A stretch of 64,000 bases of DNA from positions 118,541-182,540 of the forward strand of contig NZ_JACHIM010000002.1 in NCBI RefSeq assembly GCF_014203215.1. The letters are read 5' to 3'. The notes beneath the pieces were generated by a model. That model had not been told where the DNA came from. It saw only the letters and a list, made by a program, of their open reading frames with translations, and searched no databases. Positions within the stretch are counted from its first letter, which is position 1; each line of letters begins with the position of its first letter. Below, one piece after another: positions 1,835 through 36,260 of the stretch. Origin of the DNA: Bartonella callosciuri (GTDB lineage: Bacteria; Pseudomonadota; Alphaproteobacteria; Rhizobiales; Rhizobiaceae). The translations under genes and the position numbers were made by a program.

Positions 1835-3421
1835 ATGAATATGAATCGTTTACTAACAACATCTATTTTTGCTCTGATTTCAGCTTCTGCAGTGCAGGCA
1901 GCTGATGTGACTGTTCCTCGCCAACCAGCGCCAGTTGCTTCGTCAGCTTTGGTCGCTCCTAATTTTACATGGACGGGCTTTTACCTTGGTGGTCAGATTG
2001 GTGGTTTTTCAAGTAAAACGGATATGGGTATTATTAGTAAAGATAAAACTGTACCACTGAGTAAAGATTTATCACCTAAACTTTCAGCTTTTGAGAGTGG
2101 TTTTTATACAGGTGCGAATATTGATCTTGGCAATAATTTTGTTTTTGGTATCGATACGGATTTAATCTGGTCTGGACAAAAATACACAAAGACTGTTACT
2201 ATAGGGGCCTCTGATAATGCTGTAGTAGACAATTTAGTAGCAAGATCTCGTAGATCAGCGCGATCATTATCAGGGACTCCATCATCAACAACACTGGCGC
2301 CAACATCACAAAGAACAACACAAACGAATGCAGTAGCGGGACCAAAAGCAGCAAAACCAGCAGCACCAAGGCCAGTACAAGCGAAATCAGTAGTAGGAAG
2401 AACGGTATCAGTAAAAGCGGTAATAAAACAGCCAGAAGTTGCAAGATCAGAGACAGAAACAGCTCCAGTGACAGTTCCAGTAGCGCCAACACAAACGCAA
2501 ACGCCAGCTCCAGCAGCGTCAAGAACTCCAGCGAAGGCAGCGCAAGGTCCAACAGCTCCAGCAGAAAAACCGGTAGCTGCAACAACAGAAACAACAGTAT
2601 CTGCGAAATCAACAACAGGAGAAACAAAAACACCAGCCGTATCACCGGGATTAGGTGAAGGGAGATTATTATTGCTAGGACGATCAAGAACACAAGCAGC
2701 ATCAGAACCAGAATTAGTCCTGGCAAGATCAGGATCTTCATCTGCAGCAGTAACAACACAAAAAGAAGGACTATTACCAGCAGCAAAGCAGACAGTACAC
2801 ACTGTCAACGGGACAGATCGCACAACCTACAGTTATCATGGTCATGGTGCATCTCATGGAGTTGGACATGGTGCTAGTGCTAATCCCCAGGTTACTAATT
2901 CGCGCGCCTCTAATCCGCATGGTGCACAGAATGGAGCTGGGCATGGTACGCAAGGTACACAAGCTGGGGATCAGAACGGTTCCAGTGTATATGGTATAGA
3001 GCAAATAAAAGAGATGGTCTCTGAACTTGGTCTTGAGTATAGTGATAGCGCTGAAACTTTCAGCCATACTTTGAAGCAAAATTGGGCAGGTGCTACACGG
3101 ATGCGTATAGGTTTTGCTTCTGATCGCTTTATGCCTTATGTTGCTGGTGGTATTGCTTATGCGCAGCTCCAAGACACTGTATCCATATCACTTAAGAAAG
3201 AGGATGGAACAGGCCTTTCTTCTAAGAACTTAACCGATGAAACGAAGACAATGGTTGGTTATACTCTTGGTGGTGGAATTGATTTTGCAATGCTCGACAA
3301 TGTCATTGTGCGTGCGGAATATCGTTACTCTGATTTTGGTAAAAAGAAATTTGCAAAGGAAAAACTTGAAATGAAATATAAAACCAATGATTTCCGCGTT
3401 GGTGTCGCTTACAAATTCTAA
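1835..3421 (+). CDS. Hemin-binding/Omp25-family protein with long low-complexity insert
   Basis: Predicted outer-membrane beta-barrel protein of the Hbp family, 528 residues, against roughly 250-300 for typical members. I chose the ATG at 1835, which has GGAG upstream and opens a clean signal peptide ending SASAVQA at residue 22. An earlier in-frame ATG lies inside the preceding terminator. Residues 23 to about 134 and about 386 to 528 are the normal family halves (TWTGFYLGGQIGGFSSK, YVAGGIAYAQLQ, VRAEYRYSDFGKKKF, terminal FRVGVAYKF). Between them lie about 190 residues rich in Ala, Thr, Pro, Ser and Gln, then about 60 residues rich in His, Gly and Asn (YHGHGASHGVGHGAS). The insert sits where a surface loop is expected. 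Its His-rich part could bind heme or metal, which is inference. Codon use there (GCA, ACA, CCA, CAA) differs from the flanks. Confidence 0.88.
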   Translation: MNMNRLLTTSIFALISASAVQAADVTVPRQPAPVASSALVAPNFTWTGFYLGGQIGGFSSKTDMGIISKDKTVPLSKDLSPKLSAFESGFYTGANIDLGNNFVFGIDTDLIWSGQKYTKTVTIGASDNAVVDNLVARSRRSARSLSGTPSSTTLAPTSQRTTQTNAVAGPKAAKPAAPRPVQAKSVVGRTVSVKAVIKQPEVARSETETAPVTVPVAPTQTQTPAPAASRTPAKAAQGPTAPAEKPVAATTETTVSAKSTTGETKTPAVSPGLGEGRLLLLGRSRTQAASEPELVLARSGSSSAAVTTQKEGLLPAAKQTVHTVNGTDRTTYSYHGHGASHGVGHGASANPQVTNSRASNPHGAQNGAGHGTQGTQAGDQNGSSVYGIEQIKEMVSELGLEYSDSAETFSHTLKQNWAGATRMRIGFASDRFMPYVAGGIAYAQLQDTVSISLKKEDGTGLSSKNLTDETKTMVGYTLGGGIDFAMLDNVIVRAEYRYSDFGKKKFAKEKLEMKYKTNDFRVGVAYKF

Positions 3422-29020: not shown

Positions 29021-30454
29021 ATGATGTTTAAGGGTAAGAATGATGAATTGAAGCGTAGCCTTCAAAATCGCCATATTCAAATGATTGCTTTGGGTGGTGT
29101 TATCGGAACGGGTCTTTTTTATGGATCAACAGAGGCAATTCAATTGGCTGGCCCTTCAGCTATTTTAGCTTATCTTTTTGGGGGGCTTATTATTTATTTT
29201 ATTATGCGAATGCTTGGTGAAATGTCTGTAGAGGAACCAATTTCAGGTGCTTTTAGTTTTTTTGCCTATAAATATTGGGGAAACCTTGCTGGTTTCATAA
29301 CAGGTTGGAATTATTGGTTTCTTTATATTCTTGTGAGCATGACCGAGCTTACAGTGATTGGATTTTATCTTGATCATTGGATTTTGATTGATCATTGGAA
29401 GGCTTCTTTTATTGTTCTTTTGTTTGTTACATTCATTAATTTATTTAATGTTCGTTTTTACGGAGAATTTGAATTTGGTTGCGCTTTGATCAAAGTTGCT
29501 GCTGTTATTGGTATGATTATTTTGGGGATGTTTCTCATTGTAACTGGAATGAATGATAGCCAAGCGAGTGTTCATCATCTTTGGAAGCATGGCGGTTTTT
29601 TTCCTTATGGAGCGATAGGGGTTATCTTGGCTACTTCTGTAGTGATGTTTTCTTTTGGTGGAACAGAACTTATTGCTATTGCCGCTGGAGAGGCATCTAA
29701 TCCGCAAAAAACAATTCCAACTGCTATTCGTCAAGTTATGTGGAGGATTATAATTTTTTACATTGGTTCTATTAGCGTGATTATGATGATAAGCCCATGG
29801 AATATGATTGGTAAAAATGGTAGTCCTTTTGTCACAATTTTTGAAACTGTAGGAATTCCTGCTGCTGGTCATATTTTAAATTTTGTGGTCATTATGGCTG
29901 CCATTTCGGTTTATAATAGTGGCATTTATTCCAATGGTCGTATGCTTTATAGTTTAGCTATACAAAAAAATGCTCCACATATTTTTAGTAAATTGAGTAT
30001 TGCTCGGGTTCCTTATGTTGCTATCCTTTTTTCATCGATCTGTACTGCGTTGATTATCGTCGTTAATGCTCTTGTTCCTGATAATAGTTTTATGCGGATC
30101 ATGGCTCTTGCAACTGCAGCAGCTGTTATTACTTGGGCTATTATTGTTATTGTTCATTTGAAATTTAGAAAGGCCCATAAGGACAGAAAGGAAACGTTTA
30201 TTTATACGTTTGGCTTGTATCCTTACGCCAACTATTTTTGCCTCTGCTTTCTTGCTTTATTATTTTGCATTATGTTTTTAAGTGGCTTTAGGCAAAATGG
30301 CTTAATGATTCAACTTTTTGATATGATAGGAATAAGGGTATCTTCTCTTGAAATATATATCCCTGTGCAGATGCCTGATATGAGTTTGGCAGTTATGATT
30401 ATTCCTATATGGTGCTTGTTTTTACTCTTGGGCTATAAACTTAAGCGACAGTGA
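29021..30454 (+). CDS. Amino-acid permease, APC superfamily (AAT family)
   Basis: Inner-membrane proton-coupled amino-acid importer, 477 residues, about 12 predicted membrane helices. The family opening is exact: LKRSLQNRHIQMIALGGVIG, then TGLFYGSTEAI. Another AAT-type stretch is MLGEMSVEEPISGAFSFFA, and FGGTELIAIAAGEASNPQKT carries the conserved Glu between helices 6 and 7. Substrate choice (AroP, CycA, ProY or LysP types) is not decided. Two ATGs stand in tandem at the start with GAGGGA upstream. It ends 36 bases before bioM but probably belongs to a separate unit. Confidence 0.9.
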   Translation: MMFKGKNDELKRSLQNRHIQMIALGGVIGTGLFYGSTEAIQLAGPSAILAYLFGGLIIYFIMRMLGEMSVEEPISGAFSFFAYKYWGNLAGFITGWNYWFLYILVSMTELTVIGFYLDHWILIDHWKASFIVLLFVTFINLFNVRFYGEFEFGCALIKVAAVIGMIILGMFLIVTGMNDSQASVHHLWKHGGFFPYGAIGVILATSVVMFSFGGTELIAIAAGEASNPQKTIPTAIRQVMWRIIIFYIGSISVIMMISPWNMIGKNGSPFVTIFETVGIPAAGHILNFVVIMAAISVYNSGIYSNGRMLYSLAIQKNAPHIFSKLSIARVPYVAILFSSICTALIIVVNALVPDNSFMRIMALATAAAVITWAIIVIVHLKFRKAHKDRKETFIYTFGLYPYANYFCLCFLALLFCIMFLSGFRQNGLMIQLFDMIGIRVSSLEIYIPVQMPDMSLAVMIIPIWCLFLLLGYKLKRQ

Positions 30455-30489
30455 TAGAAGAGGTAATATAGAGGGATTGATTAAAACAA

Positions 30490-31173
30490 ATGTTGGGGAT
30501 GATAAAGTTTGATAAAGTGACACAAGTTTTTGGTGATTTGTGCGTTTTGAGGGATATTACTGTACAGCTTACCGAAAGACGAATCGCCATTATTGGTGCG
30601 AATGGTTCTGGAAAAAGTACATTTGTTCGTCTTATCAATGGGCTACAATTACCATCGCATGGTTGTGTAAGCGTTGATGGGCTTGATACAAAGCGTGATG
30701 CAAAAGCAGTAAAGCGTAAAGTAGGATTTGTTTTTCAAAATCCTGATAATCAAATTGTTTTACCATTAGTGGAGGAAGATTTATCTTTTGGTCTAAAAAA
30801 TCTAAAACTTAGTAAAGATGAAATTAAGGAGCGTGTAGATGAAATTTTACAGCGCTATGATCTTCAAAATTTCAGAAATCACGCAGTTCATTTATTAAGT
30901 GGTGGACAAAAACAACTCGTTGCCATTTCCAGTGTCGTAGCAATGAAACCAGACTATATTGTTTTTGATGAGCCAACGACGTTACTTGATTTGCGAAATA
31001 AGCGTCGTGTTACGCAAGTTATAGAGGAATTATCTCAAACGGCGATTGTTGTATCGCATGATTTGCAGTTTCTAGAAAAGTTTGATAGAGTGCTAGTCTT
31101 TGATAAAGGGGAGATAATTATTGATGATATACCTTCTGTTGCGATCAAAGAATATGTAAGAAGAATGTCGTGA
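30490..31173 (+). CDS. bioM: Biotin ECF transporter ATP-binding subunit
   Basis: ATPase that powers the energy-coupling-factor biotin importer. It has 227 residues. Walker A is GANGSGKST, the signature reads [10 protein letters not shown], Walker B is YIVFDEP and the switch histidine lies in VVSHD. A Q-loop is in VFQNPDNQ, typical of the ECF A-subunit. An alternative ATG lies nine bases downstream ([12 protein letters not shown]), closer to where relatives begin. The stop overlaps the bioN start by four bases. The operon bioM-bioN-bioY identifies the substrate as biotin. Confidence 0.92.
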
Positions 31174-31817
31174 TCGGATTATATCTTCCTGAGGATACGT
31201 TTGTTCATAGACTGAGACCAGGGGTTAAGCTTTTATTGCTCACGGTATGTGCAACTATGCTATTGATGGTATCATCAATACCTATTCTGTTACTTTTTTT
31301 GTTGTTTATGGCTTTATTGTATAGAGTTGCTAAGATTCCTTTTAACAATGTATTAAAGCAGCTTAAATCAATAGGCCTGTTTTTAGTCCTTATATTTGTT
31401 TTTCAAGTTTTTTTTAAGAGTTGGATTACAGGTTTTGAAATCATATTGCGTCTTATTTCTCTTGTTTTTTTAGCATCACTTGTGCCTTTAACGACTAAAG
31501 TTTCAGATATGGTGAGTACAATTGAAATGTGGCTTCAACCATTTCGACGTTTTGGTATCAATCCATCAGAATTTAGTATGGTAGTCTCTATGGCAATCAG
31601 ATTTATTCCGGTTGTTAGTGAAAAATTCAATGAAGTACGTGAAGCACAGCGAGCGCGCGGATTTGATACCAACATTTTTGCTCTTGCAATGCCGTTAATT
31701 ATACGAACGATAAGAATGGCTTCAGAGGTTGCTGAAGCACTAGATGCGCGTTCTTATAATAGTGATCCTGATGATAAAATATCTAACGATGATACAACTT
31801 TCATAGTAAAGGAATAA
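31170..31817 (+). CDS. bioN: Biotin ECF transporter transmembrane subunit
   Basis: EcfT-type membrane subunit that links the ATPase to the substrate-binding BioY. It has 215 residues with about five hydrophobic helices. The GTG start at 31170 overlaps the bioM stop. The coupling-helix arginine motifs are visible as [10 protein letters not shown] and, less perfectly, [19 protein letters not shown]-like [14 protein letters not shown] opens the protein. A decayed copy of its 3' end lies at 32946-33061, evidence for a tandem duplication of this locus. Confidence 0.9.
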
Positions 31818-32740
31818 TTCAATGAATACAAAAGATCTCGTCTATATTGCATTATTTGCTGCTATTTATGCAGTTTTAGGCCTTTTCCCTCCTATTCTTC
31901 TTCCTATTTTTCTTGGAATTCCTATTACAGCCCAGTCTATGGGACCGATGTTAGCAGGGTCTATCCTTGGAGCGAAAAGAGGGGCTTTAGCATCGATTCT
32001 TTTCCTTGTACTTGTTGCTATTGGATTGCCACTATTAGCTGGTGGGCATGGAGGCATTGGCGTTTTTTTAGGACCTAGTGCTGGTTATTTAATTGGTTTT
32101 CCAGTTGCTGCATTTTTTATTGGCTTCATGGTTGAGTTATTTTGGCAGCGATTAAATTTTATAATATTATTTGTGATAAATACTGTGGGTGGTATAGGGA
32201 TTGTCTACGCTTTTGGAATACCATGGATGGCATATATTACTCAAATCCCTCTCTTAAAGGCTTTAATGATTTCATCAGGTTTTTTGATTGGCGATTTTCT
32301 GAAAGTATTGATTGCATCTTTTGTAGCACTTACAGTTAAAAAATCCGTTCCTCTCATTTCGTTAAAGGAAAAGACTCGTTCCTAACTTTAAATGAGATTT
32401 TCTATTGCGATACATTTGAAGATAAAAAGGGGAGAAGTGATAACATGAGTTTCTTATTTCATTTTTTGCGCTTTAATGAAAGAGAATATGCAGGATAAAA
32501 GAAGTTTATTGTATGTCATCTAATTGATCATCTCAAAAGACAGTACAATACGATCCCTTGATAAGCTGCGAAGCCTATTTATGCTTTATTGGGGATGATA
32601 TTATTGCTGAAAATTTAGATGATGTGTTGAACGGAAATCGTGCAAATCGTTCTTTTTTTGTGAGAAGATTTGTAGGCTTTTTGTCGAAAGGGGAAAGTAA
32701 TGATTGGCGCTCTGGTAGTATTTTTATTTATAGTTTTTAA
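31701..32740 (+). repeat. Tandem duplication unit 1 (bioN end, bioY, downstream remnant)
   Basis: This unit recurs about 1.24 kb further on (32946-33957). It holds the bioN 3' end, bioY copy 1 and a decayed downstream frame that begins near 32488. Identity is perfect only across 31919-32283 and falls on both sides. Confidence 0.8.
31822..32385 (+). CDS. bioY: Biotin-binding S-component BioY, copy 1
   Basis: Integral membrane protein that captures biotin and docks with BioMN. It has 187 residues and about six membrane helices (LVYIALFAAIYAVLGLFPPI, LLAGGHGGIGVFLGPSAGYL, LIGFPVAAFFIGFMVELF). It begins four bases after the bioN stop, so all three genes form one operon. Residues 33-154 are identical in protein and DNA to copy 2, while both ends differ. 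The C-terminus ends SLKEKTRS. Confidence 0.93.
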   Translation: MNTKDLVYIALFAAIYAVLGLFPPILLPIFLGIPITAQSMGPMLAGSILGAKRGALASILFLVLVAIGLPLLAGGHGGIGVFLGPSAGYLIGFPVAAFFIGFMVELFWQRLNFIILFVINTVGGIGIVYAFGIPWMAYITQIPLLKALMISSGFLIGDFLKVLIASFVALTVKKSVPLISLKEKTRS

Positions 32741-32945
32741 TTTTATTTAGATTTTTTAAATAATTATTTATTATATACACAACAAAATGGGATGTAACAT
32801 TGTTTATTTCAAGAATATTATTTTAATTTTTATAGTTATATTACTTATAATATCTATACATAAAATAAATTTGTGGTAAAATTATTACTTATATTTTAAA
32901 ATAATAGAAATAAATATATCAATATAAGATATTGTTTTGTTATTT
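32386..32945. other. Gap between the two bioY copies with a decayed frame
   Basis: From 32488 a frame (ATG CAG GAT AAA AGA AGT) meets TAA after 11 codons. A shifted frame at 32558-32740 reads CFIGDDIIAENLDDVLNGNR, then FFVRRFVGFLSKGESNDWRS. The same stretch, more decayed, follows bioY copy 2. I do not recognise the family. The remaining bases to 32945 are extremely AT-rich. Confidence 0.6.
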
Positions 32946-33061
32946 GCACTATGCATAAGAATGGCATCAGAAGTGGCTAAGGGATTGGAGCTACGCTCTT
33001 ATAGGCTGATATTGTTGTTAAACTATCTGATGATAAAAAAACACCTATAATGAAAGAATAA
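32946..33061 (+). pseudogene. Decayed 3' fragment of bioN
   Basis: RMASEVAKGLELRSY matches the end of the intact bioN ([16 protein letters not shown]), and the last bases GAAAGAATAATTCAATG equal the bioN-bioY junction. It is only the final forty or so codons, placed four bases before bioY copy 2. It marks the left border of the duplicated unit. Confidence 0.8.
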
Positions 33062-33065
33062 TTCA

Positions 33066-33620
33066 ATGAATACAAAAGATCTCGTCTATATTGCATTATT
33101 TGCTACTATTTATGCGGTTTTAGGCCTTTTTCCTCCTATTCTCCTTCCTTTTTTTCTTGGGGTTCCTATTACAGCCCAGTCTATGGGACCGATGTTAGCA
33201 GGGTCTATCCTTGGAGCGAAAAGAGGGGCTTTAGCATCGATTCTTTTCCTTGTACTTGTTGCTATTGGATTGCCACTATTAGCTGGTGGGCATGGAGGCA
33301 TTGGCGTTTTTTTAGGACCTAGTGCTGGTTATTTAATTGGTTTTCCAGTTGCTGCATTTTTTATTGGCTTCATGGTTGAGTTATTTTGGCAGCGATTAAA
33401 TTTTATAATATTATTTGTGATAAATACTGTGGGTGGTATAGGGATTGTCTACGCTTTTGGAATACCATGGATGGCATATATTACTCAAATCCCTCTCTTA
33501 AAGGCTTTAATGATTTCATCAGGTTTTATGGTTGGCGGCTTTGTCAAAGCGTTGATTGCATCTTTTGTAGCACTCGTGATTAAAAAAACAATTCCCCTTA
33601 TTGTGCTCAAAAAAGGATAG
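33066..33620 (+). CDS. bioY: Biotin-binding S-component BioY, copy 2
   Basis: Second intact BioY, 184 residues. It keeps the start context ATTCAATGAATACAAAAG of copy 1. Differences cluster in the first 30 residues (FATIYAVLG, FFLGVPITAQ against FAAIYAVLG, IFLGIPITAQ) and after residue 154 (GFMVGGFVKALIASF against GFLIGDFLKVLIASF, end IVLKKG against SLKEKTRS). The middle is identical. Since no intact bioMN precedes it, it would use the BioMN of the first copy. It could also work alone, as solitary BioY proteins are known to. Confidence 0.9.
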   Translation: MNTKDLVYIALFATIYAVLGLFPPILLPFFLGVPITAQSMGPMLAGSILGAKRGALASILFLVLVAIGLPLLAGGHGGIGVFLGPSAGYLIGFPVAAFFIGFMVELFWQRLNFIILFVINTVGGIGIVYAFGIPWMAYITQIPLLKALMISSGFMVGGFVKALIASFVALVIKKTIPLIVLKKG

Positions 33621-34143
33621 TTTTTTGCTTTGAATGAGGGGTTTATATAGTGATATACTTAGAGAAAAATGATAAAATTCTCTATCTTGTTTTTTTGCAT
33701 TTTAATTGAGAGCAAATATGTAAGATAAAAGAAGCTTATTATATGTTATCTAAGCGATCATCTCAAAAATAAGTAATATACAATTTGTATCTCTTCTTAT
33801 TAAGAGATATTAAAAGAACAACATTATCATTGAAAATTTAGGTGACGTTTTGAAAACAAGTCGTGGAGCTTATTAGTTTTATATAAGAAAATTTTCATGA
33901 TTTTTTTCGAAAAAATGGAGTAAAAACTAAAACTCTGGTCATATTTTTATTTAAATCCTAGGAATGATTGATTTATATGCGAATGTATAGGGTATAATAT
34001 ATTTCAATATCTGTATTATAATAAATTATAAAATATTTTTTTATTATTGTAATTATGTCATTTCTAATATATAAATACATATTAATACTTATATTAAATC
34101 CATTTTAAATTATTTAATAATCTAAATTTGTAAAATTAAAGCC
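33621..34143. other. Gap after bioY copy 2 with a decayed duplicate frame
   Basis: From 33718, ATG TAA GAT AAA AGA AGC matches the sequence at 32488 and continues with scattered matches (IIENLGDVLKTSR) through several stops. This is the second, more decayed copy of the unknown downstream gene. Beyond 33960 only AT-rich DNA remains. Confidence 0.55.
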
Positions 34144-34449
34144 ATGAATGTAAGATATTTTTTTGCTGTATTCGCTATTATTTTATTTATTTCTTCTGAT
34201 GTGAAAGCATCAGATCGTATTATTATTCAAGAAAAGACACATTTTATTACATCTCTTACTGTTTATAAGATAAGTTTATTTCATAGTAAAAAGGTTAGTC
34301 CTTTATTGAATAAAGTTTTTCTACCTGCTCATCCAGGTAATCATGCTGTACTTTGGAAAAGTTTAACGTCATTTTGGGGGAGAGTGGGGGTTGTGTACGC
34401 TAAGTTATGGCGATATTTATGTGCATCCATATTTTTTATATTCAAGTAA
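34144..34449 (+). CDS. Short secreted protein or remnant, unknown
   Basis: An ATG at 34144 opens 101 residues beginning with a clear signal peptide (NVRYFFAVFAIILFISSDVKA, cleavage after residue 22) and then SDRIIIQEKTHFITSLTVYK and a hydrophobic end. I recognise no family. The flanking DNA to 35390 is full of stops, so this may be the surviving N-terminus of a longer decayed secreted protein. There is no strong ribosome site. Confidence 0.35.
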   Translation: MNVRYFFAVFAIILFISSDVKASDRIIIQEKTHFITSLTVYKISLFHSKKVSPLLNKVFLPAHPGNHAVLWKSLTSFWGRVGVVYAKLWRYLCASIFFIFK

Positions 34450-35390
34450 GGATAGAAGAGTATAGTATTCTTTGTTTTAGTTTTTGCATTAAAAATATGA
34501 AAAATATGCTTTAGGGAATGCTCAAATCTTTTTGAGAGAGGAACTTTAGGATGCCTATCAAGGTAAAAAGTTGGGGATGTGCACAGTATGTATACATGAA
34601 TTTATGTGTTATAATCTGGTGCATTAAACAATGCTTTGCAGGCATAAGTGATTACAGGTTTGCAAGTAGAAGTGGTTACAGGTGAGATCACTAAGCTTTT
34701 CTAATAGTTCAGAATAATTTTGCTGATCTGGCAAAAAAAAATAGAATGGCTCATTTGTTCAAAAAAATATTTTTTATTTTGCACAAATTGGTTCTGGTGA
34801 TTTTCTTTTTGTAAGAGTAACACGTTTTTATTGTTGCAATGCTGTTCTATTTAACAAAAAGACTAAAAATATTTCAACTTTTCTAAAAAAGATCAGTTAC
34901 TTTCAATCCAGAAGAGCTTTTAAAAAAAATGAAGTGGGTTAAGCAAAATCACTTTATATAAATTAAAATTTTTTATGGGAACGTGTTGTTGATTTTTATA
35001 TCTTTATGATGCTTCAGAGAATTTATTTATTTAGATCTTCTGTGTTTTTTCAAGGGTGATTACTCTTCTTCGAGTGCAGATGATATTCATCAATATAATG
35101 CGTATGCGCAAAGTGATCCACAAGGCAGTTTGTGTTAGATTTTAACGATTATGATGTGATATGAGAGATCTTAAAATATTTTTATTTTTTAGCAACCAAA
35201 AAAGTTTGGAGGTCTGGTACAACTAAAAATGGCTTAAAAAGAAGTTTTGATTCAAAATATGACGTTTAGGTGAATTGCTATGTGTTACGGCATAACGGAT
35301 CCAAAACCATAATTTCCGCAAAAATTATTAAAAATCTCGTTCCATAGTAGACATTATATAACACATAATGGAGCTTTTATTATAGGTACA
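34450..35390. other. Decayed DNA upstream of the MazE remnant
   Basis: No intact gene. Stretches such as KVWRSGTTKNGLKRSFDSKY near 35200-35260 and AQIGSGDFLFVRVTRFY near 34780-34830 look like former coding sequence interrupted by stops, but I cannot assign a family. Confidence 0.4.
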
Positions 35391-35594
35391 ATGCACGTCA
35401 ATGAACGCGTTAAAAAATATCGCAATGTACAAAGAAAAGTGGGATTGCGCTTAATGCAAATTTGGGGGCTAGCTACACATCAGCTGAACTTTGCAGAAGA
35501 GTGCCATTGCCAGTGTCGCTTAGTAGCAAAATGGATAAAGCTGAAACATCTATGCAATTGTTTATGGATTAATCTTTAATGGTTATAATAGTTT
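35391..35594 (+). pseudogene. Decayed MazE/DUF3018-type antitoxin
   Basis: From the ATG at 35391, HVNERVKKYRNVQRKVGLRL, then QIWGLATHQLNFAEECHCQC and RLVAK follow the DUF3018 antitoxin pattern (RVRKxRxxLRxAGLRPIQIW, FAEECRRQ). After LVAK the frame shifts. The proper end reads MDKAETSMQLFMD in another frame and then TAA. The start region is still open, so a truncated peptide of 62 codons is possible. The decayed toxin follows directly, the normal antitoxin-toxin order. Confidence 0.75.
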
Positions 35595-35603
35595 GACAGA
35601 ATA

Positions 35604-35925
35604 ATGTGTGGATCTCTCGTAACAACTAGCTATGCAGGATGAGTTTGGTAAACCAAACCAGCATTGATAATTCAGGCTAATCATTTGAGTGAGCATACAA
35701 TCGTAACGGTTTTACCAATTACATGTACACTTGTTATGGTGTTATTATTCCCCATTCCTCTTCAGCCAGATAGCAAAAATAGTTTAAAAAGCCTTCGCAA
35801 GTAATGGCTGATAAGATTATAACGGTAAGGTGTGATAAAGTAAGTACAAGTTTTAACTCTATTCATGCAGATAAAATGATAAAGATTGAACGTTGTTTGG
35901 TTGTTTTTTAGGGATAGTAAAATGA
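35604..35925 (+). pseudogene. Decayed MazF/PemK-family toxin
   Basis: Starting at the ATG of 35604, CGSLVTTSYAG meets TGA. Across later frames EFGKPKPALIIQANHLSEHT, IVTVLPITCTLV, LQPDSKNSL, KPSQVMADKIITVRCDKV and IERCLVVF, then LGIVK, follow the MazF mRNA-interferase family from the FGKPRPA-x-VIQ core to its usual end. At least three lesions make a product impossible. With the antitoxin also broken, the module is dead. Confidence 0.82.
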
Positions 35926-35992
35926 AAACGAATGTCTTTTCCTTTTGGATAGGAATATACTTTTACCAATTATAGCCATAAAGGAAATAAAA

Positions 35993-36260
35993 ATGGAAAT
36001 CACCAAATTTAATACAAGTGAATATTTCAAAACATTTGAGACTCAAAAATTCTTTTACAAGATGCTCTTGAAAGAAAAGATAGCAAGTATCTTGCACATG
36101 TTCTTGGCGTAATAGCTAAAAACCAAGAAACGAAAAAAATTGCTTAAAACTCAGGGCTATCAAGAGATTCTCTCTATCGTTTTTTAAGTGATAAAGGTGA
36201 TCCACGGCTTTCTATTTTTCTTAGTGTTTTTTGAGTGCTTTAGATTTTTAAATCAGTTTA
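35993..36260 (+). pseudogene. Decayed HigA-like addiction-module antidote protein
   Basis: From ATG 35993 the sequence reads EITKFNTSEYFKT, then after a frame change FLQDALERKDSKYLAHVLGV, IAKNQETKKIA, TAA, and NSGLSRDSLYRFLSDKGDPR with LSIFLSVL. This follows the HTH antidote family seen in HigA-like or COG3636 modules (KFDxAxYL, FLxxAxExGD, GLSRESLYKALSxxGNPxLxTLLKVL). No partner toxin was found upstream. Confidence 0.75.

Follow-up and report, generated by a model that had tools for sequence, protein, structure and literature searches.

Gene conversion and concerted evolution of type IV secretion genes in Bartonella were reportedly described by Nystedt in 2008; like the events proposed below, they would represent exchange between repeats within one Bartonella genome. 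The red and green opsins of primates are a paralogue pair that is homogenised except at functional sites, and the bioY pair analysed here resembles them in an apparent exchange over most of the gene with one difference kept. BioY of entry 4DVE shares with this locus the family PF02632, the fold (TM 0.84 for the predicted model of copy A) and the adjoining bioM and bioN. A 44-bp conversion is mentioned in a report on Bartonella experimental evolution (PMC11466379). Our search of the literature on Bartonella bioY and gene conversion returned, among the matches listed, no title or abstract opening on bioY duplication or conversion. The mechanism proposed here is of an already known kind.

The duplicated bioY locus and its identical tract

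In the open reading frame list of the 64-kb window (the whole stretch of DNA that was analysed), bioM, bioN, bioY-A and bioY-B were consecutive genes, all on the + strand. bioM (30490..31173), the ATPase of the biotin ECF transporter, matched PF00005 at 95 bits; its best NCBIfam match was an ECF ATPase (226 bits, below the cut-off of 315), and the gene was present in 53 of 54 fetched relatives. The intact copy of bioN (31170..31817), the T component, matched PF02361 (CbiQ) at 80 bits. It was followed by bioY copy A (31822..32385, 187 aa), which matched 4dve_A with an E value of 3.1e-22, and bioY copy B (33066..33620, 184 aa). The two copies matched PF02632 at 119 and 116 bits, respectively, against a curated cut-off of 25, and an NCBIfam search gave no match for either. 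The predicted model of copy A had a mean pLDDT of 87. Codon 158 was GAT (Asp) in copy A (32293..32295, + strand) and GGC (Gly) in copy B (33537..33539, + strand).

Alignment of the surrounding DNA revealed a first duplication unit at 31710..32952 (+ strand), comprising the 3' end of bioN, bioY-A and 567 nt of 3' flank, that abutted the second unit directly. At the junction lay a decayed remnant of the bioN 3' end (32955..33055, + strand), 33% different from 31710-31811. On the other side, the flank copy 3' of bioY-A (32386..32952, + strand; D1) was 29% different from the 3' flank of copy B (33621..34178, + strand; D2), so that divergence between the units was alike on both sides. Alignment and tree placed D2 as homologous to the flank of the single-copy species, with 80% identity to the downstream flank of genome G070 over 664 aligned nt. 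Because the flanks on both sides of the bioY copies are homologous, the locus represents an old duplication in tandem, with a unit of about 1.24 kb that comprises the bioN 3' end, bioY and the downstream flank.

Between these decayed parts, 31919..32283 in copy A (gene nt 98-462, last codon 154) and 33163..33527 in copy B (both + strand) showed no difference over exactly 365 nt, with 1244 nt between corresponding positions. The first 97 gene nt before the tract contained 7 differences between the copies, and gene nt 463-552 after it contained 27 in 90. The chance that 34 differences scattered over 552 nt would all miss the 365 was about 1e-17. Overall, the locus was a mosaic, with 0/365 differences in the tract versus 12-33% in the flanking parts; a further 49 nt without differences (31812-31860) ran from the last bases of bioN into the first of bioY. 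The 3' end of bioY-A was 12-18% different from its counterpart in five related species with a single bioY, and that of bioY-B was at least 24% different from every other row and formed a long branch. The preliminary description had reported both the 365-bp identity and the diverged bioY ends, and base alignment reproduced them exactly. It had also placed different decayed sequence beside the two units and had both ends drifting alike; the flanks proved to be homologous, and the 3' end of copy B had diverged further than that of copy A.

The recA gene was present in the genome with a score above its cut-off. A search of the genome for bioB gave no match above the curated cut-off (best 33.6 bits vs 225), which fits a dependence on biotin uptake. 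Some BioY proteins are described as transporting without the module (PMC11109136), so either bioY-A or bioY-B might work alone.

Searches for other elements gave little. An Rfam search of 30400-34500 yielded no match at the gathering score, and scanning 31700-34200 for promoters and terminators gave numbers close to chance (19 promoter-like sites vs 14.4 expected, sd 3.7; one terminator-like site vs 1.2 expected). No plasmid match was found by a search in 'near' mode. Downstream of copy B, 34144-36000 held short open frames only, and the frame from 34144 was apparently cut short; in 30 of 54 relatives, sequence downstream of bioY matched the DNA at its start with a score exceeding that of shuffles by at least 6. 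Elsewhere in the window, three diverged direct repeats (359-474, 1510-1625 and 3236-3351; 65% and 80% to the first) resembled, by eye, the 3' ends of tandem outer-membrane protein genes, the middle one apparently broken.

Probable exchange between bioY copies in other Bartonella

The comparison set contained one genome per species, 71 Bartonella genomes including this one. A bioY match was present in 70 of them; 19 had two full-length copies, and G068 had a degraded first and an intact second copy. The codon alignment contained 74 rows from 55 genomes (both copies from 19, the only copy from 35 and, from G068, the intact second copy), omitting 13 deep-branching genomes (43-50% identical), G030 and G046 with partial genes, and G062 without a match; the 13 deep-branching genomes were still scored at residue 158.

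We applied a run-length permutation test to the 19 pairs (Bonferroni limit 0.0026). At all polymorphic sites it was passed by seven pairs, namely this genome (G000; P = 0.0002), G020, G026, G027, G031, G039 and G066, and at third positions alone by five (G000, G020, G026, G031 and G039). Among 342 cross-genome A-B control pairs (400 shuffles each, minimum P 0.0025), 3 passed at 0.0026 for all sites and 1 for third positions, and 25 and 21, respectively, passed at 0.05. Third-position runs reached 148 in G026, 119 in G000 and 80 in G039, versus 27 in the longest cross-genome pair. One cross-genome pair had a run as long as that of G020 (27), and two (27 and 26) had longer runs than G066 (25), which makes the weaker tracts less secure than the ones in G000, G026 and G039. 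Tract positions varied, covering gene nt 98-462 in G000, 1-450 in G026 (450 nt) and 289-542 in G039 (254 nt).

In the between-species tree, the two centres of G000 grouped together. Centres grouped by locus in 14 of the 19 two-copy genomes (14 of the 18 pairs other than G000), so homogenisation is patchy, as are the exceptions. Among the 23 genomes that a tree placed near B. tribocorum and B. grahamii, the A and B centres were separate in 14 of 15 full-length pairs, the exception being G027, whose copy A fell with B; the pair in this group is thus old and mostly unhomogenised. We then read 24 diagnostic sites whose A or B letter was shared by 11 or more of the 14 members of the respective set. 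Copy B of G039 changed from B letters to A letters across its 3' part, and copy A of G027 carried B letters in its middle. Among the single-copy genes of the group, five of seven started as A-type and continued as B-type: the switch was clean in G019, nearly clean in G055, interrupted by one odd site in G016 and G024, and less clean in G034. The other two were mostly A (G033) and B except for the start codon and one or two sites (G017). Such switched genes are the expected product of a crossover between the repeats, which would have joined the two copies into one. Based on the mosaic pairs and the switched single genes, conversion and crossover both seem to occur in Bartonella bioY pairs.

Several further observations concern the same rows. 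The first bioY of G068 was degraded, and its intact second copy began with A-type letters. In the present window both copies start with ATG; copy A started with ATG and copy B with GTG in 14 of the 19 two-copy genomes, and the GTG start might lower translation of copy B. Gly41, found in 59 of 59 outgroup rows, was replaced by Ala in 17 of 74 rows; these were the second bioY of 14 two-copy genomes and of G068, together with the lone bioY genes of G017 and G034.

Origin of the identical centre

The mosaic is very probably the product of an old tandem duplication followed by gene conversion of the centre. The duplication event took in the bioN 3' end, bioY and the downstream flank, about 1.24 kb in all; the flanks then decayed to about 30% difference, and one copy would later have overwritten at least 365 bp of the other. 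RecA-type homologous recombination between the direct repeats is the likely route, given the mosaic identity and the presence of recA. Copy A may be the likelier donor, as the branch lengths faintly suggest (centre 0.10, tail A 0.05, tail B 0.27). The same exchange seems to recur in other Bartonella, sometimes apparently with a crossover that deletes the spacer and leaves a single A/B fusion gene. With one genome per species in the comparison set, the conversion event in G000 rests on a single draft genome.

The copies would also stay alike if the centre were strongly constrained in its DNA or protein and nothing were exchanged, and the centre did have a lower pN/pS than the last part among copy pairs (0.20 vs 0.41). 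We rejected constraint as the origin of the identical centre, and give it next to no weight, on the silent sites: at fourfold positions of the centre, bioY-A and bioY-B differed at 0 of 62, while bioY differed from the relatives at 13/54 (G070), 20/53 (G029), 24/56 (G065), 24/52 (G021) and 16/50 (G001), or 24-46%, for which constraint cannot account. An artefact of assembly or polishing, in which truly different centres were homogenised in the consensus, is barely likely. The genome is in 36 contigs and 365 bp is longer than short reads; against this, two direct repeats should allow only one linear path using each flank once, which would keep the order safe, genuinely different centres should have been distinguished, and the single-contig genomes G026 and G039 have runs of 450 and 254 nt. 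Slightly less improbable, though still a small chance, is that the duplication was recent and that diverged DNA of another species was then imported into one copy's 3' end and into the flanks, a gene transfer agent being one conceivable vehicle.

The trees of the flanks bear on this import. The AU test rejected D1 and D2 as sisters (P = 7.05e-5, 12 rows); D1 was placed near other lineages, and D2 was nearest to the downstream flank of G070. The bioN remnant was weakly rejected as sister to the intact bioN end (AU P = 0.0425). Imported inner flanks would yield the same trees as an old duplication. Against import, decay was about equal on both sides of the tract, and the inner flanks had no close relative: D1 aligned locally to 19 downstream stretches, drawn from 16 of 54 fetched relatives, at 68-78% identity, and the best matches of the remnant were 83% in local alignment and 79% over 109 columns. 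The remnant may also belong beside its own group, since its placement next to the 12 rows holding the intact end was not rejected (AU P = 0.451), and a single old duplication is the simpler account. A further test had rejected the remnant inside the seven-species bioN group (AU P = 0.006); we set it aside as confounded, because the seven intact bioN ends of that group are hardly one clade (AU P = 0.0623), and the reading of a conversion does not depend on this value.

Duplication with later conversion, the order of events that the preliminary description had put forward, is thus supported by the decayed homologous flanks, the sharp borders, the fourfold sites and the separate placement of D1 and D2; the base-by-base and silent-site comparison it had called for gave the counts listed above. 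From the placement of D1, D2 and the remnant, the duplication seems to predate the split from G070. Counting against this age, sisterhood of A and B was not rejected for the 90-nt 3' gene tails (AU P = 0.29), and the 5' and 3' gene trees had too few columns to resolve most forks. The left breakpoint within bioN was similar here and in the tribocorum/grahamii group, and all 13 remnants used fell in one clade with a support of only 52, which suggests a common origin of the two duplications that we do not claim. That tree used 12 of the 17 remnants available from other genomes of this kind, omitting the poorly aligned G025, G049, G050, G052 and G054, and was built without G026, G028 and the 13 distant genomes.

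The last helix, residue 158 and comparison with known systems

The model of copy A places the last helix at residues 155-175, just beyond the end of the G000 tract at codon 154. Residue 158 lies in this helix and is aligned with D173 of 4dve_A, as Lys161 is with K176; we take these two positions of the chain to be the ligand residues D164 and K167 of the published numbering. Copy A has Asp158 and Lys161, and copy B has Gly158 and Lys161. The proposal that conversion kept the biotin-binding core homogenised is therefore not supported, as Asp158 and Lys161 are outside the tract and copy B has lost the Asp.

Within genomes, the synonymous difference between copies A and B rose from 0.25 (codons 1-32) and 0.30 (codons 33-149) to 0.44 (codons 150-184), and it was nearly flat among the 35 single copies (0.44, 0.48 and 0.49 for the same blocks). 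This climb at the 3' end indicates that conversion, as judged from silent sites, seldom extends into the last helix.

Asp was found at residue 158 in 59 of 59 outgroup rows, consisting of 45 loci from other genera, the 13 deep-branching Bartonella genomes and L134 (Bartonella sp. G70; Asp158), which should have been excluded. In the 74 Bartonella rows the residue was Asp in 43, Gly in 27 and Ala in 4 (Gly/Ala 31/74), and Lys161 was invariant (74/74). Among the 28 sites at least 98% identical in the outgroup, residue 158 ranked first with at least 10 changes on the tree of codons 1-154 (runner-up 6), a count that may be inflated because the tree was built from recombining genes; for the 35 single-copy genomes, at least 4 changes were required on the bioM+bioN tree. 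It was also the residue most often differing between copies. Exactly one copy carried Asp158 in 18 of 19 pairs (copy A 17 times, copy B once, in G026); the remaining pair, G039, had Asp158 in both copies, and its tract spans the residue. The same D/G split is seen in G026, where the order is reversed, and in G028; both duplications look like separate events, since that of G026 has a longer bioN piece and that of G028 is a larger unit with a full-length bioN. The Gly type stood alone in 12 of the 35 single-copy genomes; together with the double Asp of G039, this indicates that neither type is indispensable, as far as these gene sets can tell.

In the sequence of events proposed above, the last helix would rarely be converted, so that as a rule one copy keeps Asp158 and the other Gly or Ala. 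We infer that selection maintains this split by removing conversions that would erase it, so that one BioMN would be served by two S components, one of D-type and one of G/A-type. In the last part, pN/pS was 0.34 for single copies and 0.41 for copy pairs; no value exceeded 1, which counts against selection, and the low similarity of the 3' ends could by itself restrict recombination there. As a tentative reading, to which we give somewhat less than an even chance, Bartonella may repeatedly form BioY pairs of Asp158 and Gly/Ala158 that differ in affinity or in ligand (biotin versus a precursor or bound form), with conversion unifying the scaffold and selection halting the tracts before the last helix.

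The two-copy state in 20 of 71 genomes provides a natural series for following, at single-base resolution, the exchange of sequence within the same tandem gene pair. It highlights a residue that is invariant in the outgroup and repeatedly lost from one of two copies, and it makes testable, in vitamin uptake, whether paralogues can be homogenised yet remain functionally distinct. Compared with the type IV secretion genes of Bartonella, the exchange here involves a vitamin-transporter pair; fusion deletions apparently arise as by-products, and one helix is mostly spared. Unlike the BioY of 4DVE, two tandem copies accompany one bioMN, one of them without the Asp158 that is universal in the 59 outgroup rows. 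In contrast to the opsins, selection on the retained site is here a proposal.
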